A DNA stretch of 64,000 bases. Source: Argopecten irradians. Lineage: Eukaryota > Mollusca > Bivalvia > Pectinida > Pectinidae. Both the position numbers and the translations under genes were made by a program. Position 1 is the stretch's first letter, and each line of letters opens with the position of its first letter. The stretch is from contig NC_091147.1 of NCBI RefSeq assembly GCF_041381155.1, forward strand, positions 16,715,318-16,779,317. The letters run 5' to 3'. Shown here piece after piece: positions 1 to 62,184 of the stretch. The notes beneath the pieces were generated by a model. The model was given only the letters and a program-made list of their open reading frames with translations. It made no database searches and was not told the origin of the DNA.

Positions 1-510
1 GAAGGGTCGAGTTCCGTGACTTTTATATATACGTACTACTGCTATTGAAGGGTCGAGATCCATGACCTTTATATATAAGTACAGCTGCTATTGAAGGGTC
101 GAGTTCCGTAACCTTTATATATACGTACGACTGCTATTGAAGGGTCGAGTTCCGTGACTTTTATATATATGTACGACTGCTATTGAAGGGTCGAGTTCCG
201 TGACCTTTATATATACGTACTACTGCTATTGAAGGGTCGAGTTCCGTGACTTTTATATATATGTACGACCTTTTATATATATGTACGACTGCTATTGAAG
301 GGTCGAGTTCCGTGACTTTTATATATACGTACGACTGCTATTGAAGGGTCGAGATCCATGACCTTTATATATAAGTACGACTGCTATTGAAGGGTCGAGT
401 TCCGTGACCTTTATATATACGTACGACTGCTATTGAAGGGTCGAGTTCCGTGACCTTTATATATACGTACGACTGCTATTGAAGGGTCGAGTTCCGTGAC
501 CTTCATCAGA
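1..510. repeat. 46-bp minisatellite built from an ATG4 exon end plus splice donor
   Basis: About 11 head-to-tail copies of a 46-bp unit run from the left edge to about 510, with one irregular partial unit near 267-290. Read on the minus strand, each unit holds 30 nt that encode the end of ATG4 exon 10 (VTELDPSIAV), followed by the donor GTACGT and about 10 more intron bases. The right-most copy is the real end of exon 10 (donor GT at 469-470). The rest lies in the following intron and runs off the window. Some units differ slightly (gatccatgacc in place of gttccgtgacc). Confidence 0.95.
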
Positions 511-3500
511 CTAGGATACTGGCAGTGGTAACTCTGGTCATTACTGGTGGGATCGTCTAGATCTGTCATGCCTTGTGTGGTATGAGGATCGAGGAACACC
601 AACTTATCACCTACAAATAAATGAATTATTAATATTTGTCTTTAAGTCTTGTAAATAATAATGTCACAGTGGTTGTTTTACATTAATTGTAACAGCAAAA
701 GTAATTTTCATACCTATTAGGTTTAAGAAGCAGAAAAATCAGAGTTCCCTGAGGAAATCCACCAATCTACGGTCAGTGCTAGGCAACTATACCTAACATA
801 TGATTCTAACTTGAAACCAAGAGGTAGAGAGGTAGTGGTATTATGCAGGAACATCTAATTAACTACACTCTGTCACCTCATGGCATGAAGAAAGAAATAA
901 TCAAAATGATATCCTATCGATCTACACCAAGCACAGAATTTTATTTGTTCTCTATACTTACCTAAGAACCCTACAAACCAATGGGCATGGTTTGGACGAC
1001 CTCCTATAATGCCTACACTTTGTTTAAAGGTGAAACATCTCTGTAAGAAAACAAACAAAATGTCAAAACACTTTTAGTTTAAAATAAAATACTTTAAGTT
1101 CATCAACGCCTGATGATGTACGACAATGGCTGTTATTATATTCTGTATAAGTTACAGAGTTATCTGCCCTTGTAACTTGCAGTTAAGTATTGTTTGTGAT
1201 GTCATGTGTTTGCAAGATCAATGCCATCTATTTTTCAGAGAAAATGATATGTGTTTCGCTCACATCAAATATTATAAATGACTTCACAACTAATTCCTAC
1301 CCGAATGTGTAGGTAACTCTTGAAACCAATCCAATAAAGCCACGTGACATCAACAAAATTACTATTTTCTTCTGTCATTTTCCGAGGTATAAGAGAAAAA
1401 TTCTCTTTAATATGTGGATATGAAGGACAGGAATATTCTACCCTCGGGATCACAAAATGTAAAACCCTCTGCAAGCCTCATTTTTTTACAACATTCTCTG
1501 ATCCTCCGGTGGTATATCCCTATCCTTCATATCCACATATGATAGAGTTTTATATCATCTGACATATTAGCTGCTTAAGTATCAATCTGTAAATGATACT
1601 AATGTGCAGGCATCTGAAGAATATTAAGGCATTTCATTTAAATCACATCAAATAGCTTGTCACTAGGTAATCTATACCTCTACCCCATCATTTGTATACA
1701 CTTACTGCTGGTCTGATGTTGAAGCTATACATTTGTACATCATATCAGAAAATTACATAATCTTGTTCTGATAAACGTTTACTCTACTAACAGTAACCAA
1801 ATGTATCTAACTGTAGTACTTACTTTTAGATGATCAATATATACAGAGTTGATATCTAGTTAACCCCAGCCTTAGTGGTATAGATCTGTACATATAGTAC
1901 TTACTTTTAGACTATCTAATATATACAGAGTTGATATCAGTTAACCCCAGCCTTAGTGGTATAGATCTGTACATATAATACTTACTTTTAGACTATCTAT
2001 ATATACAGAGTTGATGTCAGTTAACCCCAGCCTTAGTGGTATAGATCTGTACATATAGTACTTACTTTTAGACTATCTATATATACAGAGTTGATATCAG
2101 TTAACCCCAGCCTTAGTGGTATAGATCTGTACATATAGTACTTACTTTTAGACTATCTATATATACAGAGTTGATGTCAGTTAACCCAGCCTTAGTGGTA
2201 TAGATCTGTACATATAGTACTTACTTTTAGACTATCTATATATACAGAGTTGATGTCAGTTAACCCAGCCTTAGTGGTATAGATCTGTACATATAGTACT
2301 TACTTTTAGACTATCTATATATACAGAGTTGATGTCAGTTAACCCAGCCTTAGTGGTATAATCTGTACATATAGTACTTACTTTTAGACTATCTATATAT
2401 ACAGAGTTGATGTCAGTTAACCCCAGCCTTAGTGGTATAGATCTGTACATATAGTACTTACTTTTAGACTATCTATATATACAGAGTTGATATCAGTTAA
2501 CCCCAGCCTTAGTGGTATAGATCTGTACATATAATACTTACTTTTAGACTATCTATATATACAGAGTTGATGTCAGTTAACCCAGCCTTAGTGGTATAAT
2601 CTGTACATATAGTACTTACTTTTAGACTATCTATATATACAGAGTTGATGTCAGTTAACCCCAGCCTTAGTGGTATAGATCTGTACATATAGTACTTACT
2701 TTTAGACTATCTATATATACAGAGTTGATGTCAGTTAACCCCAGCCTTAGTGGTATAGATCTGTACATATAGTACTTACTTTTAGACTATCTATATATAC
2801 AGAGTTGATGTCAGTTAACCCCAGCCTTAGTGGTATAGATCTGTACATATAGTACTTACTTTTAGACTATCTATATATACAGAGTTGATGTCAGTTAACC
2901 CCAGCCTTAGTGGTATAGATCTGTACATATAGTACTTACTTTTAGACTATCTATATATATACAGAGTTGATGTCAGTTAACCCCAGCCTTAGTGGTATAG
3001 ATCTGTACATATAGTACTTACTTTTAGACTATCTATATATACAGAGTTGATGTCAGTTAACCCCAGCCTTAGTGGTATAGATCTGTACATATAGTACTTA
3101 CTTTTAGACTATCTATATATACAGAGTTGATGTCAGTTAACCCCAGCCTTAGTGGTATAGATCTGTACATATAGTACTTACTTTTAGACTATCTATATAT
3201 ACAGAGTTGATGTCAGTTAACCCCAGCCTTAGTGGTATAGATCTGTACATATAGTACTTACTTTTAGACTATCTATATATACAGAGTTGATGTCAGTTAA
3301 CCCCAGCCTTAGTGGTATAGATCTGTACATATAGTACTTACTTTTAGACTATCTATATATACAGAGTTGATGTCAGTTAACCCCAGCCTTAGTGGTATAG
3401 ATCTGTACATATAGTACTTACTTTTAGACTATCTATATATACAGAGTTGATGTCAGTTAACCCCAGCCTTAGTGGTATAGATCTGTACATATATAGTACT

Positions 3501-6500
3501 TACTTTTAGACTATCTATATATACAGAGTTGATGTCAGTTAACCCCAGCCTTAGTGGTATAGATCTGTACATATAGTACTTACTTTTAGACTATCTATAT
3601 ATACAGAGTTGATGTCAGTTAACCCAGTCTTAGTGGTATAGATCTGTACATATAGTACTTACTTTTAGACTATCTATATATACAGAGTTGATGTCAGTTA
3701 AACCCCAGTCTTAGTGGTATAAATCTGTACATATAGTACTTACTTTTAGACTATCTATATATACAGAGTTGATGTCAGTTAACCCCAGCCTTAGTGGTAT
3801 AGATCTGTACATATAGTACTTACTTTTAGACTATCTATATATACAGAGTTGATGTCAGTTAACCCCAGCCTTAGTGGTATAGATCTGTACATATAGTACT
3901 TACTTTTAGACTATCTATATATACAGAGTTGATGTCAGTTAACCCCAGTCTTAGTGGTATAAATCTGTACATATAGTACTTACTTTTAGACTATCTATAT
4001 ATACAGAGTTGATGTCAGTTAACCCCAGCCTTAGTGGTATAGATCTGTACATATAGTACTTACTTTTAGACTATCTATATATACAGAGTTGATGTCAGTT
4101 AACCCCAGCCTTAGTGGTATAGATCTGTACATATAATACTTACTTTTAGACTATCTATATATACAGAGTTGATGTCAGTTAACCCCAGCCTTAGTGGTAT
4201 AGATCTGTACATATAGTACTTACTTTTAGACTATCTATATATACAGAGTTGATGTCAGTTAACCCCAGCCTTAGTGGTATAGATCTGTACATATAGTACT
4301 TACTTTTAGACTATCTATATATACAGAGTTGATGTCAGTTAACCCCAGCCTTAGTGGTATAGATCTGTACATATAGTACTTACTTTTAGACTATCTATAT
4401 ATACAGAGTTGATGTCAGTTAACCCCAGCCTTAGTGGTATAGATCTGTACATATAGTACTTACTTTTAGACTATCTATATATACAGAGTTGATGTCAGTT
4501 AACCCCAGCCTTAGTGGTATAGATTGTACATATAATACTTTTGACTATCTTATATACGAGTGAGTCAGTTAACCCCAGCCTTGTGTATAGATCTGTAATA
4601 GTACTTACTTTTAGACTATCTATATATACAGAGTTGATGTCAGTTAACCCCAGCCTTAGTGGTATAGATCTGTACATATATATTACTTTTAGACTATCTA
4701 TATATACAGAGTTGATGTCAGTTAACCCCAGCCTTAGTGGTATAGATCTGTACATATAGTACTTACTTTTAGACTATCTATATATACAGAGTTGATGTCA
4801 GTTAACCCCAGCCTTAGTGGTATAGATCTGTACATATAGTACTTACTTTTAGACTATCTATATATACAGAGTTGATGTCAGTTAACCCCAGCCTTAGTGG
4901 TATAGATCTGTACATATAGTACTTACTTTTAGACTATCTATATATACAGAGTTGATGTCAGTTAACCCCAGCCTTAGTGGTATAGATCTGTACATATAGT
5001 ACTTACTTTTAGACTATCTATATATACAGAGTTGATGTCAGTTAACCCCAGCCTTAGTGGTATAGATCTGTACATATAGTACTTACTTTTAGACTATCTA
5101 TATATACAGAGTTGATGTCAGTTAACCCCAGCCTTAGTGGTATAGATCTGTACATATAGTACTTACTTTTAGACTATCTATATATACAGAGTTGATGTCA
5201 GTTAACCCAGCCTTAGTGGTATAGATCTGTACATATAGTACTTACTTTTAGACTATCTATATATACAGAGTTGATGTCAGTTAACCCCAGCCTTAGTGGT
5301 ATAGATCTGTACATATAGTACTTACTTTTAGACTATCTATATATACAGAGTTGATGTCAGTTAACCCCAGCCTTAGTGGTATAGATCTGTACATATAATA
5401 CTTACTTTTAGACTATCTATATATACAGAGTTGATGTCAGTTAACCCCAGCCTTAGTGGTATAGATCTGTACATATAGTACTTACTTTTAGACTATCTAT
5501 ATATATACAGAGTTGATGTCAGTTAACCCCAGCCTTAGTGGTATAGATCTGTACATACAGTACTTACTTTTAGACTATCTATATATACAGAGTTGATGTC
5601 AGTTAAACCCAGCCTTAGTGGTATAGATCTGTACATATAGTACTTACTTTTAGACTATCTATATATACAGAGTTGATATCAGTTAACCCCAGCCTTAGTG
5701 GTATAGATCTGTACATGTAGTACTTACTTTTAGACTATCTATATATACAGAGTTGATGTCAGTTAACCCCAGCCTTAGTGGTATAGATCTGTACATGTAG
5801 TACTTACTTTTAGACTATCTATATATACAGAGTTGATGTCAGTTAACCCCAGCCTTAGTGGTATAGATCTGTACATATAATACTTACTTTTAGACTATCT
5901 ATATATACAGAGTTGATATCAGTTAACCCAGCTTATGGTATAGATCTGTACATATATACTACTTTAGACTATCTATATAAGTTGATTCAGTACGCTGTGT
6001 ATATTGTATATGATACTTTAGATATCATATAGTTGACATTAACCCAGCCTATGTATAGACTGTACATATAGACTTAATTCTATTATGAAGACGGAACGGA
6101 AAACTCGATCCAGACTTAGGCTGGAACGAAGGTGTCCGGATTAGTACTTACTTTTGACTATCTATATATACAGAGTTGATGTCAGTTAACCCAGCCTTAG
6201 TGGTATAGATCTGTACATGTAGTACTTACTTTTAGACTATCTATATATACAGAGTTGATGTCAGTTAACCCCAGCCTTAGTGGTATAGATCTGTACATGT
6301 AGTACTTACTTTTAGACTATCTATATATACAGAGTTGATGTCAGTTAACCCCAGCCTTAGTGGTATAGATCTGTACATGTAGTACTTACTTTTAGACTAT
6401 CTATATATACAGAGTTGATGTCAGTTAACCCCAGCCTTAGTGGTATAGATCTGTACATATAGTACTTACTTTTAAACTATCTATATATACAGAGTTGATG

Positions 6501-9500
6501 TCAGTTAACCCCAGCCTTAGTGGTATAGATCTGTACATGTAGTACTTACTTTTAGACTATCTATATATACAGAGTTGATGTCAGTTAACCCCAGCCTTAG
6601 TGGTATAGATCTGTACATATAATACTTACTTTTAGACTATCTATATATACAGTACCTGAACCGTTTAACGTTCCCAGCCTAACGCAAACGCAACGCAAAA
6701 AAATCGTCCGTTAGCTAACGCTAACGATTGCTAACGCTAACGATTAACGATTAACGGTAAACGATTAACGCAATACCGGCTAACGATTAACGCAAAACGC
6801 AAAACGATCGGCTATGATAAACCGGAAATACCATTGTTATAATCACGGACACGGCTTGACGGTAAATAAATTACGGATCTTGACGTTCTGAAATACAAAC
6901 GAAAGTACAAGAAAAACTGGAGTATGTTCGGGATTAAAGTTTCTGTGTATCATATAAACATTTGCCTATGAAAACTATATGGACACGATGAAGTCAAAGA
7001 CGACAGTACTCAATGCAAAGTTTCCACTTTACATGTACAAAATGTACGTTTACAAAATGAATTACATGTGCAACTGTGTGTATGGAGAAAGAATGGTATT
7101 ATTCTAAAGTGTCATTTTACCCGATATTTTAAGAAATAACAAATTATTACAACATCTCTTTACTGATAATAACACAATGAAGTCAAACACGACTGTACTC
7201 GATACGAAGTTTCCACTTCACACGTACACGTACGTTTACAAATTACGTGTACAGCCGTATGTATTAAGAGAGAATTGTATTATTCTAAGTGTCATATTTG
7301 TCCGACATTTTAAGAAATAATAAACAAATTGTTACAACAACACTTTATTGATAATATTACCGTCACATACTGGTACTTTAAATAGTATCATGGTATTGAA
7401 ATGACGAATAAAACATTTTCACACCATTTTCACACAAACACATTTAAAATGCAGTAAATCAAATTTCCATCTATATGTTTGATTTCTATTATCGATGTTT
7501 CATAACTCAACAATTGTAATAATTAACATCTTATAGTGTTTCCCGCATCAATCACAAGTTTCAGGGTTTTTGTAGATTGTCGAAAGGCTCTTCCGCTTAC
7601 CATGGAAAATTGTATTCTCGGAATATTTGTTTCATAACGGATTACACGCTGTATATTACTAGGGTGTGCATTCATAAAAGCTCATTGCTTACAATTGACT
7701 AGGCATCGATTTTAGGGTCGTACATGTACATTTACAAATGCACGTACATACGCCACAGCTACTGTAATAAAGATTGAACATTTGAATTTGTGTTTCACCA
7801 TTTGCAGTTCTCTCATTTTATAGTTCATGCATATAATAAAGATATAAAGAATGAAAATATTTCACTTCCAGTTATTTATATTCAAATTAAGTCAATTATG
7901 CATAATCATTAATAACAACGACGATGAAGATAGTGATGCACATGCATACATGTATGTACACTGAATATTATATACTGTAAAATTGCATTGCGACAATTTT
8001 CTACGTATATTTGTAACTGGTGTAAGAAATATAGTTATTTGATCACATTTCACATCAAGCAACTCTTCAATTTACAGTTTAAACAAATTAATTATTCATA
8101 CAATGGATAAGTGTAAGTTAATTCTTTCCAACGTAATCTATACTATAGGAAAGCATATTGCACACATCAAAACTTTGAAATACGACAGTACATATATGGA
8201 CGTGAAATGTACTGTCACAGTGTACGGGGCACAGGTAAGTTGGGTATAAAGTTAATCTCCCTCCCAAGAAGGTGTTAATTACAGGTGAACTCCGCCCGTG
8301 GCAAGCTACAGGGGGTCGACACAAGGTAACACCAGTCGTGACCTATATACCTGTACAGGTAAAATACCCGTGCGCGTCACGCTGGGAATTGAAGAGATTC
8401 CAGTTACAAATAACAACGGGTGCCCGTGACTGTCCAGTTTTTATTGATATGAGCTGATTTGACACGCGTACAGTATGTGTGAAGGCTTACAATGTAACGT
8501 ACCCCTGCACAGTTCGAATTATCTACACGTGTTCTACATGTAGTTGTAGGATTGCAAACATTTACATCATTTTATTCCATTTTCATATAAATAAAAGTAC
8601 TAATAACTTGCGTTTAAAAGTATGTACATGTAAATGACAAATCTCACCTATTCCTCGTGTTTAAACTCGTCATATTAATGATTTTTAAATTTCACGAATT
8701 TATGCGTTCTTCGTACATTGATAATATTTAACATAACAAGAACAATATTATGCAGCGTGTCTGTAATAACATTTTTATATTTTTATTATCTGTTTTAGCT
8801 ATTTTCTTGTGTAATCTATCAGTCGTCGTGGATACACGAAGCGGTAAACGTAATATCTTAGTAGATAAAAATGAACATTATATCCGGATCGTCAAAGCAT
8901 ATCACCGGCATTTGGTTCTATTTTTAGTGGTTAACGTTAGCGGAAGTCGGTCCTGCTAACGATTAACGCAAACGATTTCTAACGCAAACGATTGTAAACG
9001 CAACTAACGATTAACGATTGCTAACGCAAACGATAACGATTAACGATAAACGATTGCTAACGCTAACGATTGCTAACGGAAATAACGCAAACGCAAACGA
9101 AACGCAAATTTGGGAACGTTAAACGGTTCAGGTACTGTACAGAGTTGATGTCAGTTAACCCAGCCTTAGTGATATAGATCTGTACATAAAATACTTACTT
9201 TTAGACTATCTATATATACAGAGTTGATGTCAGTTAACCCCAGCCTTAGTGGTATCACAAGTAACAGAGGTTTCCAGCTGCCTCCAGACTTTCCCTTGAG
9301 CCTGTGGTTTGTTTGACTCGGGCCCCCTTCAGCTCCCTTCACATTCTGACATCCCATAATATCACAGCTGTCTGTACTACCCATACACAGTCCTCCTGGG
9401 GGTCAAGGTCAAAGGTTTCATGGCAAAGGTCATATCATACATTGTACATAAATGTATTTCAAAATTAATAAAAGAAAATGAATAAATTAACATTAACTTT

Positions 9501-12500
9501 TGTGTGTGGAAGACATACAATTTAATGAGGGTCAAGGTCATATACATTTGGTGGTGCCTTACACAACATGATACATTGGGTCAGGGCAACAGAATTTTTG
9601 TTTTTCAAATTCCTAGAAGCTCTTGATATATGACTGCATAAACATGTAATAAACTGACAACACAGGCGGAAAATAAACCGTTATGATATGGTGGTAAAAT
9701 TCAATTGAGTGTGAAGAAAAATACAAAACTGCTAATATTGGAAAAAACAGCTCCAGGAAACACATTTGTAGCTTAAGTAACGAAGGTATGAGGTGATAAC
9801 TAGTAATCTATTACCATAATCAACCCAATAACCAACATTTATGAGGCCTTAATTTCACTAACCTCAAATTAAACACAGACTGGAAATATGAAAACCATTT
9901 TCACTGTACGTAGGTTTCTTTATTTGATGTACATCTTATCCGAATCGATTGATATGACTTACTTTGTACAATATTTTTATGACAATATGGTTCTATTATA
10001 AACGCTCCCTAATTTTGTTTTCATTGTTTAAGTGTCCTGGGCGGTAATTGAGATAAACATCTTAGCTGTTGGTACTTACGGATGTCATTTTCTATCACAG
10101 TGTTGTCCATAGCTACATGGATTACTAAATTGGACCATTCGTCATAAACAGCAAGTTTTCTTCAAAGACAAGTTCAGATTGTGGTGGAAATTGGTACAAA
10201 ATATGTAAATGATAGCAATTAAGATGACTTCAAAGTTTTCGAAATGTTAGAGATGTGTTCCTAATTGTTGTTATTGATTTTTCACTCATAAAGTGCAACT
10301 TAAAACAGGAATCTATATAAACAATCAATATGTTGTTTTTGCCATTTGAAAGCAAATTAGATAATTAGAAGATATGGAAGAAATCATAAGATTTGTCATC
10401 CTTAATAGCAGTATAGACTCTCCCTAAAGATATATTCTCCCCCCTAATGCAGTAGACTCTCCCTAAAGCTGTAGTCTCCCCTTAAAGCTGTAGTCTCCCC
10501 CCTAAAGCAGTAGACTCCCCCTAAAGCTGTAGTCTCCCCCTAAAGCTGTAGTCTCCCCCCTAAAGCAGTAGACTCCCCCTAAAGCGATAGACTCCCCCTA
10601 AAGCTGTAGTCTCCCCCCTAAAGCTGTAGTCTCCACCCTAAAGCTGTAGTCTCCACCCTAAAGCTGTAGTCTCCCCCTACAGCAGTAAACTTCTCCTAAA
10701 GCTGTAGTCTTCCACCTAAAGCATTAGACTTTCCCTTAAATTGGTAGTTTCACCCGAAATGTAAGATGTATACTTACTTTAACACTTGAGCAACAGTGTT
10801 AGGTCCAAACCACTGGCCCACAGCTTTACCTTCCGACACGCCCATGGAGGCTGTTATAACAAAACTTACCATTAGCTTATCCATACTTGACAAGTTAAAG
10901 AAAGGTTGTCATTCAAAACAGGTTCTGTCAAAATCATCCATTAAATGCAAATATCCCAACACAGACACTGTAGCAAATTGCTGAATATAAGTTGTATGTA
11001 TATCTTATATGTATTTCATAGTATAAACAGATCATTACAATTATATTACTTTTATTAAGTTGTATTAAAAATGTATTGTGTATCATATCTACCAATTTGT
11101 TGAATGGAGAAGTTGGCACTTTTTTTGTCCTGAAACAAGCTAAGAACTTTCCAGTACAGTTTATCTCGCTGTCCATCATCTAACCATCGCCAGTCTGTAC
11201 AGAAACAAATACTTTCATTGATTTGGTTATTTTGACATCCTTTTAACTGCCAGGATTATTTAAGGACATGCCAGGTTTTAATGGTGGAGCAATGGTGGAG
11301 TACTATCGACCAAGAAAAACCACTGACCACAGTGACCAGTGGTCAGTACCTGGCAACTACCCTACAATGGATTCAAATTTGCAACCAAGAGGTGGAGTGC
11401 ATGTGCATGTTGGGATATCTTAATTTTGCAATTTTGAGTATTTATATTCTTCAGCTATATCTGTGCTCAAAGCATTTTCATGCCAACTAATTTTCATGGT
11501 TTCTGATCATACATAAAATCTTATCGCAATCAGAATTAAGTAGGTTTACAGTAAATGACTAAAATACAGCTGTTTTACAGTTAAGTGTTGATAATTGATT
11601 CAGATATCTTCCTTTACAGTATCAATATTTTGCATCTTTAAGGAAGATTCTCAAAATAACTTTCAAAAAGTGTTATATAATATTTACCTCTGCCACAGTG
11701 GTGAACAAGAAGTGTCTGGGCTAACATCATCTGTCCACAGCGCAACATACACCCCCAACCTGTATCTCCCGATGGTCCCGTACCACCTACATCAAACATT
11801 ACATACATGTATGCTCAATAAAAACTCAGAAACATAGGAGAGGTTATATTTACTGTGTATATCAGCCAGTCAATTTTTTTTGTGTATTAATATAAAAACA
11901 GTAAGATTTTAAAATTTAAAGAATTAAAATTTTCGATATCTGTATATAAAGGCTATAAATAATATGATAAAACTCTTTCGCAAACAAAATTTTTGAAAAC
12001 AAAAGCGATGTGATGCCAAATTGCTACAATATTATCCCTGCAAAAATACAATAGTTTTAAGGTTGGGAAACATATGTAGCTGATAATACAGTGTAAACAG
12101 AATGATTATGGTAGGTTAAAATGATGAGTCTATACATACTTACCATGACACAATATTTATAAGAATTAATTTTCAGTTTATTGTTCAATTATTTACATGA
12201 CAGGTGACCAACAGACATTACCTATAGCTGGAAAGTTTCTCCTGTATGTCATCCATAGTCGTGATACAAAATCATGGCGCAGCTCTTCTCTGTCTGAATA
12301 TAAAAACACAAACTGTCTATAACATGAATCAAAAATTAGATAAAATATTGATTGATTGGCAACACAGGTCAATTCAGGTGAGCAAACTACATGCATATAT
12401 GTCAAAGAAAAAACAAAACTCAATATATCAATCAAAATAAAATAAATGTTATGTTACGTTGGTTGGACTAATTAATAATAATGTTCTTGCATTTCATATA

Positions 12501-41000: not shown

Positions 41001-41214
41001 TCAACACCAGGTAGCCTATAATGATTGGCTCCCATTTTATTACAGCAGCTCTTACGTCGATTTCACACATCCCTACCCCATTCGTGGACATGACATCCTA
41101 ATTGATAATAAAGGGGAGTATGATACGTTTCAAGCTCCTTTATGGCCATGTAATCATGATTGGTAGTGAAAGGGAATTATTTTTGAAGTTGATCGAGATA
41201 GTAAGTAATACTTA

Positions 41215-41830
41215 TCCAGCCCCTTTTATGACCATGCAACCCTGATAGGTAATGCAAGGGAAGTATATGTGCAGTTGACTGTGGTACCAAGTGATACATC
41301 ACCCGCCCCTTTTATGGCCATGCAACCCTGATAGGTAATGCAAGGGTAGTTTGTGTGCAGTTGACTGTGGTACCAAGTGATACGTCACCAGCCCCTTTTT
41401 TATGGTCATGCAACCCTGATAGGTAATGCAAGGGTAGTATGTATGCAGTTGACTGTGGTACCAAGTGATACGTCACCAGCCCCTTTTTATGGTCATGCAA
41501 CCCTGATAGGTAATGCAAGGGTAGTATGTGTGCAGTTGACTGTGGTACCAAGTGATACGTCACCAGCCCCTTTTTTATGGTCATGCAACCCTGATAGGTA
41601 ATGCAAGGGTAGTTTGTGTGCAGTTGACTGTGGTACCAAGTGATACGTCACCAGCCCCTTTTTTATGGTCATGCAACCCTGATAGGTAATGCAAGGGTAG
41701 TATGTATGCAGTTGACTGTGGTACCAAGTGATACGTCACCAGCCCCTTTTTATGGTCATGCAACCCTGATAGGTAATGCAAGGGTAGTATGTGTGCAGTT
41801 GACTGTGGTACCAAGTGATACGTCACCAGC
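41215..41830. repeat. 86-88-bp minisatellite, seven copies, upstream of methyltransferase copy 1
   Basis: Unit text: cccctttttatggtcatgca, accctgataggtaatgcaag, tgtgtgcagttgactgtggt, accaagtgatacgtcacc. Length varies by the T run. Single diverged units flank it (about 41140-41200 and 42605-42660), and one lies at 55405-55490 in block B. The array therefore expanded in block A only, after the duplication. Overlapping open frames here are an artefact of the repeat. Confidence 0.95.
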
Positions 41831-45800: not shown

Positions 45801-47753
45801 TCATGACGTCGTTCAGAACGACGTCACAATACATGTTTAATATATCACTACACCAACGGGAGTTATAGGAGAATAATGATCTCATAAATTCCCTTTTTGT
45901 TTGGTAAGGTTATATAGTGCCAGTCCCGAGCAAATGGAAATATATATATAATAAAGATTACCGCTAAAGTTTACAGTAATATGTTGATAAATCAGGCTTT
46001 CTTGACTCTCTGACAGGATATGGATTCGATGATATGCCGAGAGAGATTGTTGATGCAGTAGACAACAGAATGGGAGATGAAAGTGCTGCTAGAGAGGTGG
46101 AACTTCTGCTAGAACCTATCAACAAAATCAAAGGTAAACTTTTCATATTAATGTACTATAAACCATCTTAGTTTCGCGGCTAAGTTGTTCAGCGTTTTCA
46201 TACATAACGACGAATTGGTGTCGATTTGATTTCGCGAATAACACTCCTATTGAAATAATTCATTTACCACTTGATACCCGATAACATTTGTGCGGTACTA
46301 GTATCTCCAATGGTGATGGAACATATTAATTTGCAGTCTTTCTGCAGAAATGACGTTAGCGCGGGATATCATCTTTTGACGTCATTATATCACCAATAGA
46401 AACAATAGTCCCGCACAAACGTTATTGGGGATCACGTGGTTCGTGAATATTTCCCAATGTTTTACACTGTCCTGATACATTTTGATGGTGATTTGAAATT
46501 AATGGTGAAATACGTGATTCATAATCGCGAATATAAATACGTTAATTGTTACATTAGTAGTAGTAGTAGTACATGGTTTTGGTAACAATCGCCATTGTAA
46601 TATGGTAATGTATTGGCAATTGTCTTGAGAAAAGTTACCTTCTATCTTTAGCCATACAATGACCTTTGTCGGAAACTAAAAGGCTGGAAACCTGGGTATT
46701 GCATTTGATATTTTCTTATTTGGTAGGCTTTATTTTACATTACTATATTATGAAATGTATCCTAGCTTTTAAGTTAGTAAAACGCTAAAATGTATTTGAA
46801 AAAACTATTGTTATCAATGTCAAATATCCATTTGTTTTCTGAAATTTGGAACGCCACTCAATCAAAATTACGGAGATATAGCGCTAAATGCTGTAGGACG
46901 ATCTTCCGCATTTGAGATATGATGATAATAAATCCGATATTTGTAATGACGTTATGAATGTTCAAGCACGCCAAACTACAAGTGGAATTACAGTATAACC
47001 CCTCAAACTCGAACCCGGATTCCTCGAATACCCCCATTCGTCGAACTGGTCGTACGGTCCCGACCGTGTCTAAAGCTATATAATCTATGTAACAAAACCC
47101 CAGATAGCTCGAACAGCTATTCGTCGAATACCCCTTATTCCTAAAACAGAAATATGTTTAATATCTGGTACAATGTATGATAAATTTCAGAGCTATCTTC
47201 TTTGCTGAATGTTCTTGACCTTGGATCAGGTGCGGGTGTTTTGACACGAGCACTCAGCAAACGTTTTCCTGACGCCGAAGTCTTTGGTGTCGACTTCAAC
47301 GAGCTGGCCATTAAGAAAGCAGATGCTCACACGGACAATCCCTCAAATGTAAAGTATCTCAAAGCAAGTGTAGCGAGCTTACCAGCAGATTGGACAAATA
47401 AATTTGATTGGGTTGTGATCTATGACGTGTTGCATGACCTTCCGTGTCCCGAGGAATGCATGCGCGAAGTTGCGCGTGTGTTAAAAGATGACGGATTAGT
47501 GTCAATTACCGATCCTCACGTACACAGTAACCATAGGGACAATGTGGATGACTTGGCGGGTGCAGGGATCAGATATGCCATAAGCTCCGTGGTTTGTTTG
47601 CCGAGTAGTATGTCGGCAGATGGCGCTGCAGGACACGGTATCGGCTGGGGCACCGAGAACAGGGAAACCTTTTTAACTAAGGCAGGCTGGTGTATCGAAG
47701 ACAAACGCATACAGGGAACCAATTCCAATTTCACTTGCTCTAAATGTAAATAG
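42840..47753 (+). CDS. SAM-dependent methyltransferase (Rv2258c-like), copy 1, complete
   Basis: Exons 42840-43006, 44844-45031, 46017-46133 and 47191-47753 join in phase to 344 codons plus stop. The first two exons form an N-terminal winged-helix part (VTCQHLADLCNLKER, then YVREWLGCMVASRVV). Exon 3 is a linker (FDDMPREIVDAVDNRM). Exon 4 is a class I Rossmann methyltransferase: motif I VLDLGSGAG, acidic ribose-binding Asp in VFGVDFNELA, motif II/IV WVVIYDVLHDLP, then VARVLKDDGLVSITDP, ending CSKCK. Substrate is unknown; the fold and an Rv2258c-like annotation are what such animal proteins usually receive. All frames are open. It has a tandem paralogue at 56503-62126. Intron 1 carries R1 and a small hairpin (44112-44193). 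Confidence 0.92.
44112..44193. repeat. Small hairpin in methyltransferase intron 1
   Basis: gacgaatgtcttatttgcag pairs with ctgccagtaagacattcgtc. A decayed version is at 57087-57166 in copy 2, so it predates the duplication. Confidence 0.7.
44325..44762 (-). repeat. R1 dispersed repeat, copy B (intron 1 of copy 1)
   Basis: Reverse complement of the R1 text (tagtagtttctgcccctg, gaggagacacaacacgaata, cctcccaaaacatacatcca). A decayed counterpart sits at the same place in copy 2 (57275-57560), so this insertion predates the gene duplication, unlike 40107-40503. Confidence 0.8.
45325..45412. repeat. Hairpin in intron 2 of methyltransferase copy 1
   Basis: ctgggagatattgcagacaa and ttgtctgcaatcctgggag are inverted around gataacgcgtgttagcgc. 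Probably a small foldback MITE. Confidence 0.65.
46275..46440. mobile_element. Foldback MITE in intron 3 of methyltransferase copy 1
   Basis: acccgataacatttgtgcgg and its near complement cccgcacaaacgttattggg form the ends of a stretch of about 165 bp. A TGACGTCA-like word lies in the middle (46375-46382). Confidence 0.6.
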
Positions 47754-52500: not shown

Positions 52501-52590
52501 TTGCTATTTCATCTTTGCATATTACGGAGTAAGCTTCCTTGCGGGTAGGTATACATAGTGACGTTATTATTTTTGTGAGCGTAATCTCTC
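49585..52590. other. Gene-free stretch between the duplicated blocks
   Basis: No exon recognised. It contains the foldback at 50855-50978 and a short relative of its core at 50122-50146 (atatcagcgcccgggctgatatca). 50990-51470 is A-rich low complexity. A reversed copy of the dispersed repeat at 62185-62345 is seen at 52500-52600. Confidence 0.5.
50855..50978. mobile_element. Near-perfect 120-bp palindrome (foldback element)
   Basis: tttgatatcgcaccctttat and ataaagggtgcgatatcaaa are exact complements. The centre repeats gggctgatat and cccgagac/ggcctgcggccc words. Such a long perfect arm implies a young foldback. Confidence 0.85.
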
Positions 52591-57560: not shown

Positions 57561-58684
57561 TTTTAAAATTGACTCTGGCTGTTCATAGGACGTTAATCTA
57601 ATATGCCAAATAAAAACGAAATACATTTTCTTACCTTGGTAGATATGTCAGAGAATGGTTGGGTTGTATGGTGGCCAGTAAAGTTGTCTCCCTTGATGGT
57701 GATGATAAATACTTTATCCCGGAACACTGTAAACCTGGACTGGAAGTCGTTGGTTTTCTTGGAGTATATTCTACAATGAGCGCAATGAGCAAAAAGGCCA
57801 CGGACTGCTTCAGGAAAGACGGACCTAATGGTGAGCAGCTCAATAACTGTTATTACTGTCAATCCTTACGAAATACACATTTTCGATTAATTTTACAAGA
57901 GAGCTCGAATACTTTAGATATTTCGCGATTAAATCACACGGTGAAAGGGCTAAAGGATATGTCGATTTTTATTGTGTTAGATTTTCCTCAAAATTCCCCT
58001 ATGATAATAATTTTCTGAAAAAGGGCCCATATACCTTCATTTCAATTTGTGAAATGTCTCATTTGGCCCCATTTTAATAAACCATGCGCAAATTGTACCT
58101 ATTCACCAAGTTTCATTATAATATGCCAAAGCGAGAAGACATATTTGACATGATTTGCGATCAGACGCTATAGAAGACGTCTTTGTTGTTTAAATTGCTT
58201 ATTTAAAATTCCTAGAATAGAACACATGAGTTATATGTTATGCAAATATATCATTGGTCACTGTGCTCTAGCTCATAATGTTATATTGCACGAAGCCATA
58301 GGCTTTTTGGGGTGGTTTTTTTGTTGTTGTTTCCCACCTCCAAAAAAATATAAAATAAAGTAAAAATATATTCAATAGACATGTAAATAACAATATTTTC
58401 CTTTCACAGATGGAATCGCACACAAATTTCCATTTCGAAATTTTAAACACAAACTTCCGTCACTTTCACATTAGTTACAGATACATTGTATATTCGTCTT
58501 ATCTCATTAATACCTCTCAATCATTCATTTCCATTCAAAATAAGCTATGATAGATGGTAAAGAAATTGATACTGGTATATAAGTAATTCAGTTAAAGGGA
58601 AAATATGACATGGAACACAGTAACCCAAGAAATATTTGCTTTATTACATAATCAATGAATCGCCAGTTTTTTTAATTGAATTTT

Positions 58685-60528: not shown

Positions 60529-62184
60529 TGTGTAGTTCATGCTCCTGGAAGCAATCTCCATTGCAATTTTTGATATGGAATGATCTTGAGGAATGTTGAC
60601 TTCTATCTTTAGCCATACGATGACCTTTGTCGGAAACTATAAGGCTGGAATTATAATCTCGCTCAATTTTGTAAGGAGATCTTCAGCATTCGAGATAAAT
60701 GATGATACAAATCTGATGTTTGAAATGACGTTATGAGTGATCAAGCATGAAAAACGATGAATGGAATTACTTCAAAAAACTAGCTATCATGACTTATTAA
60801 GGTGGTAAGTCGGTCAAATATTCGTATCTAAACCTGAATTATGATATGGAAGCCGGATTGATTGAACAATGGTCGTTGTACATACCCAAAGATTCTTCAA
60901 ACATCTTTAATTTGGATTGCATTGATGGTGTAAATACAGTTAAAGCCTTGCCTCATTATTGGTTTATGGACAAGTTAGTAGAAAGAATAATTGGTTTGTG
61001 TTTGTTTAATGTCCCCGTTTTATTCATTTGTAGAATTTGGTCCTTCAACCCATCCCGCTAGTCTGTCTGACTGTTCCTGTTCTTTTATTGTACAAATAAT
61101 AACAATATAAGTTTAAACATTCGTACTAAAATAATAAAAAAAAAATAACGGTTTAAATGGTTTGCAAATGACCTCTATATGTCGTGTATGTCTCTAGAGA
61201 GGTTTAGTGGTTGATTTACACCTAGTTACCGCTTCTTCTTTTTTATATCTCAACATGAATGTTTAACTTGTATTTATAACTTTAAATCCACACGCTTTAC
61301 TGTAGATATCCGTATATTGTTGTACTATTGTTGGTTATGAACCCCCATTTTCCCAGTGTAAAACCATTTGTATCCATCGATGTCATTTGTTGGTCGGATA
61401 GAAACTACTTGACTGAAAAAGCAGATAAAACGGATATGCTGGGTAGCTGTGTGAGGGATATTTGAACAATAGATACATTACTACATATGGTATAAAAATT
61501 CTTTACACTTGCATATGTCAATTCTAATATTTTATCGCTGCTGTAAAGTATGATACATTTAAGAATCATCTTCTTTGCTGAACGTCCTTGACCTTGGATC
61601 AGGTGCGGGCTTTTTGACACGAGCTCTGGGCAAACGTTTCCCTGACGCTGAAGTCTTTGGTGTCGACTTCAACGAGCTCGCCATCAAGAAAGCAGATGCT
61701 CACGCGGACCATCCCTCCAATGTAAAGTATCTCAAAGCAAGTGTAGCGAGCTTACCAGCAGATTGGACAAATAAATTTGATTGGGTTGTGATCTATGACG
61801 TGCTGCATGACCTTCCGTGTCCCGAGGAATGCATGCGTGAAGTTGCGCGTGTGTTGAAAGACGACGGATTAGTGTCCATAACCGACCCTCACTTACACAG
61901 TAACCAAAAGGACAATGTGAGTGACTTTTTAGGTGCCGGGATCAAATATGCCATAAGTTCCGTGGTGTGTTTGCCGAGTAGTATGTCAACAGATGGTGCC
62001 GCTGGAAACGGTATCGGCTGGGGCAACGAGAACAGAGAAGCCTTTTTAACTGAGGCAGGCTGGTGTATCCAAGACAAAAGCCAACAAGGAATGAATTGTA
62101 ATTTAACTTGCTCTAAATGTAAGTAAATGGGGTTGGTATTCCGTCGTTTCAAATTACAGAGTTACCTCCCTTGTCAGTACATTG

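Follow-up and report, generated by a model that had tools for sequence, protein, structure and literature searches.

Minisatellites that span exon/intron borders are known from amphioxus under the name of mirages. According to the available parts of two reports, they occur there in Adh3, the globin genes BflGb6 and BflGb9, troponin C and PGBD5, and results of reverse transcription polymerase chain reaction suggest that regular splicing continues (PMC3087553, PMC3902484). In human IFI6 (6-16), as described in the accessible portion of the respective study, two downstream repeat units are used as splice donors, giving rise to three mRNAs (PMC4526556). Human genes in segmental duplications contain internal tandem repeats at exon-intron boundaries, with about four units of 30 bp on average, which the available excerpt of that work discusses as a source of novel introns (PMC2812944). 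Here we report on two tandem arrays in the ATG4 gene of the scallop Argopecten irradians, both made of copies of a coding exon end together with its 5' splice site. The analysis covers the DNA sequence of one assembly, that of an 846-Mb animal genome; the window, i.e. the whole stretch that was analysed, comprises 64,000 nucleotides (nt; C14:16715318-16779317). Judged by their anatomy, the ATG4 arrays are new members of the mirage class.

Results

Two arrays of exon ends and splice donors in ATG4

The ATG4 gene is located on the minus strand of the window, and its order is read from position 9199 leftward, past the left edge and into the sequence L009. A peptide joined by hand from several of its exons matched Pfam family Peptidase_C54 (1.5e-40), and the reading frame is open as far as both array-bearing exon borders. 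Beyond the left edge of the window, L009 contains an ATG4 exon with GFYCRNEDDFTDFCCQ... and then the final exon ending in EEFELVG* (by eye). A 68-residue query derived from two ATG4 exons yielded three matches in total: the two exons themselves, located on C14, plus a single distant relative, which lies on C6 (42% identity). The features relevant to the two arrays are as follows.

9199-9255, minus strand: end of an ATG4 exon; this authentic copy opens array 1 and translates to IPLRLGLTDINSVYIDSLK, with the frame open further upstream
9193-9198, minus strand: authentic donor GTAAGT of the IPLRLGLTDINSVYIDSLK exon, assigned from the sequence; the exon ends in phase 0
1814-9255, minus strand: array 1, an 80-bp unit present about 63 times, in which 57 nt of exon end are followed by GTAAGT and by 17 nt of intron; split by a transposon
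6650-9137, strand not assigned: DNA transposon of 2.49 kb within one unit of array 1; inverted ends CAGTACCTGAACCGTTTAACGTTCCC, TA target duplication at 6648-6649 and 9138-9139
962 to about 1040, minus strand: next ATG4 exon (RCFTFKQSVGIIGGRPNHAHWFVGFL), borders by eye; preceded by TTACAG
471-610, minus strand: following ATG4 exon (DKLVFLDPHTTQ...SLMKVTELDPSIAV, with the end VTELDPSIAV), borders by eye; array 2 begins with the end of this exon
465-470, minus strand: authentic donor GTACGT of the VTELDPSIAV exon, assigned from the sequence; the downstream exon GFYCRNEDDF... is located in L009
1-503, minus strand: array 2, units of 46 bp in which 30 nt of exon end are followed by GTACGT and by 10 nt of intron; runs on for 817 bp past the left edge (L009:9184-10000)

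An earlier note on this DNA had described about 60 tandem units of a 57-nt exon end followed by GTAAGT, starting at the true donor of an ATG4 exon, and had taken the exonic part to be conserved ATG4 coding sequence that is the same in exon and array. All of these claims were borne out. Tandem Repeats Finder detected the 80-bp array in two parts, with 52.3 copies and 97% matches at 1814-5979 and with 6.4 copies and 98% matches at 6142-6652. Wrap-around alignment resolved the exon copy (9255-9176), one unit split by the transposon (9175-9139 plus 6652-6607) and 61 more units down to position 1814, three of which (6125-5942) are degenerate and correspond to only 66-76% of the consensus. The exon copy has an unaltered GTAAGT, as do 57 of the 62 units on its far side, so that the donor is preserved in 58 of 63 units overall. 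The ATG4 exon tail (9255-9199) matches array units exactly over 57 nt. When this tail was used for scanning array 1, 39 of 41 non-overlapping fuzzy hits were exact and 40 were followed by GTAAGT; with 39 exact 57-mers, chance is excluded as the source of the array. The scan is greedy, and variant units are skipped by it, so the unit total was taken from the wrap-around alignment instead. The units are very alike, with a mean departure from the consensus (substitutions only) of 0.3% in donor columns, 0.7% in exonic columns and 1.9% in intronic columns. A query of about 1.5 units retrieved from the genome only the array's own place among the best 40 of 259 candidates, where the other units of the array were not listed either, so that this result says little about copies elsewhere, as expected for a dispersed satellite family.

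The intron harboring array 1 is about 8.16 kb long and has TTTTCTTACAG on its acceptor side, after which the exon begins at about 1040. The claim that the array occupies this intron holds insofar as array and insert together make up most of it; the array is not continuous, being interrupted by the transposon and degenerate at about 5929-6140. A single continuous array over 1814-9255 is thus refuted by the insertion at 6650-9137. Readthrough past the first donor leads to VSILCTDLYH*, with a stop after ten codons, and 80 is not a multiple of 3, which agrees with the earlier prediction that any later donor would add frame-shifting sequence with an early stop.

Array 2 follows the same design at a second exon of the gene and comprises 28 full units including the exon copy. 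Its donors are GTACGT (18 units), GTACTT (6), GTACAT (3) and GTAGGT (1), so that 27 of 28 are of the GTAC type. This array is more divergent than array 1, with a departure of 6% in donor columns (mostly due to one column), 2.7% in exonic and 1.5% in intronic columns. Since donor columns are the best kept ones in array 1 and the worst kept ones in array 2, neither array alone is evidence of selection.

The transposon within array 1 has 26-bp inverted ends and internal repeats of the TAACGATTAACGC type. Its right end occurs at at least 39 further places in the genome with 96-100% identity (best 40 of 259 candidates scored), and TA precedes CAGTACC at all seven other transposon loci that were fetched. 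It sits within one array unit, and hence that unit predates the insertion. The stretch at 5929-6140 is degenerate, rich in insertions and deletions (indels) and contains unrelated bases; it could represent assembly noise or an old insertion. Another noisy, indel-bearing stretch lies near 4524-4600, and the array regions are likely to hold sequencing noise.

Donor words in tandem throughout the genome

The genome was searched for donor words occurring three times in tandem, with gaps of 22-52 bases for AGGTAAGT and with the reversed word as control. Threefold tandems of AGGTAAGT were found at 9,086 places as compared to 898 for the control (about 10x), while the word on its own occurs at 52,563 as compared to 45,462 places (1.16x). 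Tandem places correspond to 17% of single places for AGGTAAGT and to 2% for its control. The word AAGGTAAGTA, searched with gaps of 51-81, likewise occurred in tandem at 314 places versus 32 in the control. By contrast, the acceptor word TTTTGCAG is depleted in tandem (184 places versus 1,042), with 41,029 single places versus 39,336. Complete lists of distinct arrays were obtained for CAGGTAAGTTT (six arrays), GAGGTAAGTAT (five) and CAAGGTAAGTT (three).

The upstream edge was read for 19 donor-word arrays, i.e. all 14 from the complete lists plus three for AAGGTAAGTA and two for AGGTAAGT among the matches listed. Ten of the 19 start at the end of an open frame resembling a coding exon, mostly with an acceptor-like AG upstream; within the complete lists the fraction is 8 of 14. 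Broken down by word, such exon ends are present at three of six arrays for CAGGTAAGTTT (L044, L047, L049), two of five for GAGGTAAGTAT (L055, L057), three of three for CAAGGTAAGTT (L061, L062, L063), two of three for AAGGTAAGTA (L051, L056) and none of two for AGGTAAGT. If 15% of the words were true coding donors, which is an assumed rate, the probability of observing 8 of 14 would be 3e-4; at 30% it would be 0.03. With up to two mismatches tolerated, exon and array have between 4 nt (L047) and 57 nt (L055, ATG4) of exonic sequence in common.

Homology of the exons preceding these ten arrays was graded as strong in two cases, moderate in one, and weak or consisting of an open frame only in seven:

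L055: MGAT5, 4.5e-12, strong
L051: sepiapterin reductase, 2.1e-10, strong
L049: exon resembling those of epidermal growth factor (EGF-like), FXa_inhibition, 3.2e-4, under the Pfam cut-off, moderate
L061: PMT_4TMC, 0.012, weak
L056: perlecan, 0.22, weak
L057: DHX36, 0.33, weak

The exon peptides of L044, L047, L062 and L063 had no useful homology match, and searches against PDB (L063, L061) and NCBIfam (L063, L061, L062, L044) returned nothing useful. Directly upstream of the 37-bp donor array of L062, at 266-651 on the minus strand, 14 copies of a 27-bp unit with a donor-like ACAG/GTAAGA form another array; both arrays are perhaps part of one gene, as is the case in ATG4.

Other arrays and neighboring genes

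Five other arrays (score >300, outside the transposon) are present in the window, L009 and L010, and none showed a coding exon at the edges read, which speaks against the idea that all nearby arrays are exon-derived. Both relevant edges were read for the arrays at 41139 and L009:821, the minus-strand edge only for those at L009:5472 and L010:4810, and the array at 10414 was inspected by eye. The latter (10414-10730) is a 19-bp array (TAGTCTCCCCCTAAAGCTG) in another ATG4 intron, in which no donor was seen by eye. The one at 41139-41830 is an 88-bp tandem array of about eight units, with no coding exon seen at the edges read. The window also contains two similar methyltransferase genes at 47184-47750 and 61563-62123 (Methyltransf_31, 1.6e-22 and 6e-23), and a winged-helix match at 57614-58015 is located near them.

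Discussion

The explanation we favor, with a probability of roughly 75%, is that the ATG4 arrays are mirages, i.e. tandem duplications across an exon border which expanded neutrally because the exon-proximal donor is the one in use. The initial event would be the tandem duplication of a segment that comprises the final portion of an exon, the 5' splice site and the beginning of the intron. Duplication across the 3' border of the exon would place a second donor inside the intron, and provided that splicing takes the exon-proximal donor, all extra copies would leave with the intron. The array could then gain and lose units through unequal exchange or replication slippage at almost no cost, while selection on the protein would anchor the first copy. 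This model is supported by the occurrence of the same design at two exons of ATG4, with both arrays starting at the exon's own donor. The exact exon tail within the units, the arrays of like design at other genes, the tandem excess of the donor word and the amphioxus precedent support it as well. In the mirror case of a duplication across an acceptor, the extra acceptor would come first in the transcript and would be more likely to be taken, thereby harming the protein. If acceptor copies are harmful and donor copies tolerated, differential survival would explain the asymmetry between donor and acceptor words. Preferential birth of arrays at donors would explain it too, and our data do not separate the two.

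Taking the genome-wide results into account, it is tempting to speculate that intronic satellites in this genome arise preferentially from 5' splice sites, in that donors provoke and tolerate duplication (the first donor wins) and acceptors do not; we consider this tentative and would not bet on it at even odds. The same caution applies to its corollary that introns numbering in the order of hundreds to a thousand may start with tandem copies of the adjoining exon end and its donor, a figure extrapolated roughly from the 14 arrays obtained for three word contexts.

Several observations weigh against the mirage explanation. The tandem counts refer to places and not to arrays, and a single array on C1 accounts for 97 of the 100 AGGTAAGT places listed, so that the tenfold excess is inflated. 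Counted as distinct arrays, the excess is smaller (11 versus 3; 6 versus 2 for CAGGTAAGTTT and 5 versus 1 for GAGGTAAGTAT, with nearly equal gap limits in the forward and reversed searches), pointing in the same direction in a small sample; the reversed control of CAAGGTAAGTT gave 7 places, which are places and not arrays. AGGTAAGT is absent from the ATG4 donors, which thus fall outside the word counts. Seven of the ten putative coding-exon assignments rest on weak or no homology, and no coding exon was found at the upstream edge of nine of the 19 arrays (L041, L042, L045, L046, L048, L052, L053, L054, L058). Among these, L045 may represent a first exon, and the open frame of L042 stops short of the first donor. 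Furthermore, strict neutrality predicts a ratio of only 1.16, and therefore something beyond mere tolerance may promote or keep donor arrays.

Arrays on the acceptor side, finally, exist as well. About 25 acceptor-word arrays are contained among the matches listed (100 of 184 places), and eight were picked by hand, some of them for their coding look, which makes this a biased sample. Three of the eight lead into a likely coding exon:

L067, C12:40461516-40461613: array of acceptor and exon start, cytochrome P450, 3.6e-12
L050, C15:14292659-14293634: array of acceptor and exon start, tetraspanin-like, 1.5e-4 (hand-assembled peptide; the last copy is out of frame in the assembly)
L066: acceptor-side array leading into a likely coding exon without a family match

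No coding exon was found for the other five, where in the case of L070 the sequence read ends within the array. Both exon borders can thus be involved in arrays of this type.

Among the alternatives, the likeliest is that donors are a mutational hot spot, for example because U1-bound nascent RNA or R-loops promote local tandem duplication at transcribed exon ends, whereby arrays would be born much more frequently at donors than at other sites. This possibility is compatible with mirages that expand neutrally, and although we regard it as rather unlikely, two observations fit it: the tandem excess exceeds the frequency of the single word, and 8 of the 14 completely listed arrays are located at apparent coding exon ends. 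The acceptor-side arrays of the tetraspanin-like and P450 genes argue against it, and the same asymmetry would result from differential survival, with the first site in the transcript prevailing among donors and, by the same rule, among acceptors.

A function of the repeated donors is improbable in our opinion. According to this idea, the many U1 sites at the beginning of a long intron would recruit the U1 small nuclear ribonucleoprotein, prevent polyadenylation from occurring too early or help the first donor to be recognized, with selection keeping the arrays. The large tandem excess of the donor word over its reverse, together with the lack of an excess for the acceptor word, would be in line with such a role, as would the low departure (0.3%) of the donor columns in array 1, though all columns of this array are near uniform. 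Of 12 exon-end arrays (ten besides those of ATG4), three have a first donor that is weaker than the GTAAGT of the array, namely L049 (GTAAGA), L051 (GTTAGT) and L057 (GTCAGT), yet sampling by the consensus word itself may produce such a difference. The donor columns of array 2, which are kept less well than its other columns, speak against a function.

Use of internal donors appears comparably improbable. As in human IFI6, it would generate alternative transcripts, which for ATG4 might be regulated isoforms or decoys subject to nonsense-mediated decay. Retention of GTAAGT in 58 of the 63 units of array 1 is compatible with this view, and the available part of the IFI6 report provides a precedent, with two downstream units serving as donors for three mRNAs (PMC4526556); the unit length of 80 bp and the early stop upon readthrough, on the other hand, imply that such isoforms would be non-productive. 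An assembly artefact inflating the copy number, to which the noisy indel stretches near 4524-4600 and 5929-6140 might point, is very improbable in view of distinct variants that occur in runs among the units, the transposon inside the array, and array 2, which has the same design with a different sequence.

If the ATG4 arrays are mirages as we propose, each intron of this type places dozens of nearly identical copies behind the single correct donor. The copy chosen by the spliceosome can be read from long-read RNA, so that these introns would provide a natural test of first-come, first-served and exon-definition models of splicing. Recurrence, the excess of tandem donors and the deficit of tandem acceptors suggest that mirages may commonly grow introns in some genomes. 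Should 5' splice sites indeed be preferred seeds, the arrays would be an experiment of nature, spread over the whole genome, on how splice sites are chosen, and one route by which introns grow.

Comparison with known systems

The earlier note considered it rare for conserved coding sequence to seed satellites. This view finds no support given the second case within ATG4, the others in the same genome, and the existence of mirages as a named class in amphioxus, as documented in the available part of PMC3087553. Within the openly licensed literature, as represented by titles and the beginnings of abstracts, we found no mirages named outside lancelets, no genome-wide donor bias and no arrays of this length, and the portions of PMC3862624 and PMC12783039 at hand describe nothing of the mirage kind.

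Both ATG4 arrays display the anatomical features of mirages, as their units span the exon/intron border and carry copies of the splice signal, and the authentic exon copy is intact at the array edge. As far as the accessible descriptions go, amphioxus and scallop are also alike in that 5' and 3' borders are both affected and that several genes per genome are concerned. The IFI6 minisatellite, reportedly described by Turri et al. in 1995, is said to have a 12-bp unit that resembles the donor consensus. The ATG4 units (80 and 46 bp) do not share this trait, and they consist mostly of exon, with up to 57 nt of coding sequence. What IFI6 and ATG4 have in common, judging from the part of the IFI6 study at our disposal, is a minisatellite at an exon end whose units offer splice donors. 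The human boundary repeats resemble those of ATG4 in that expansion of a minisatellite at an exon/intron boundary changes intron structure; unlike the latter, they are not described in the available excerpt as repeated exon ends with the donors attached (PMC2812944). Intron gain via tandem genomic duplication of AGGT segments, according to the partial account available, shares with ATG4 a tandem duplication that involves splice signals; in ATG4 the intron pre-exists and grows, and no new intron arises. In amphioxus, the accessible text gives 3 or 6 units of 150-160 bp for BflGb6, one duplicate for BflGb9 and units of 10-72 bp for Adh3. ATG4 differs from these accounts by having about 63 and 28 units in a single gene and by the donor excess measured in its genome. 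Thus, scale and donor bias are new here, while the kind itself has already been published as mirages.

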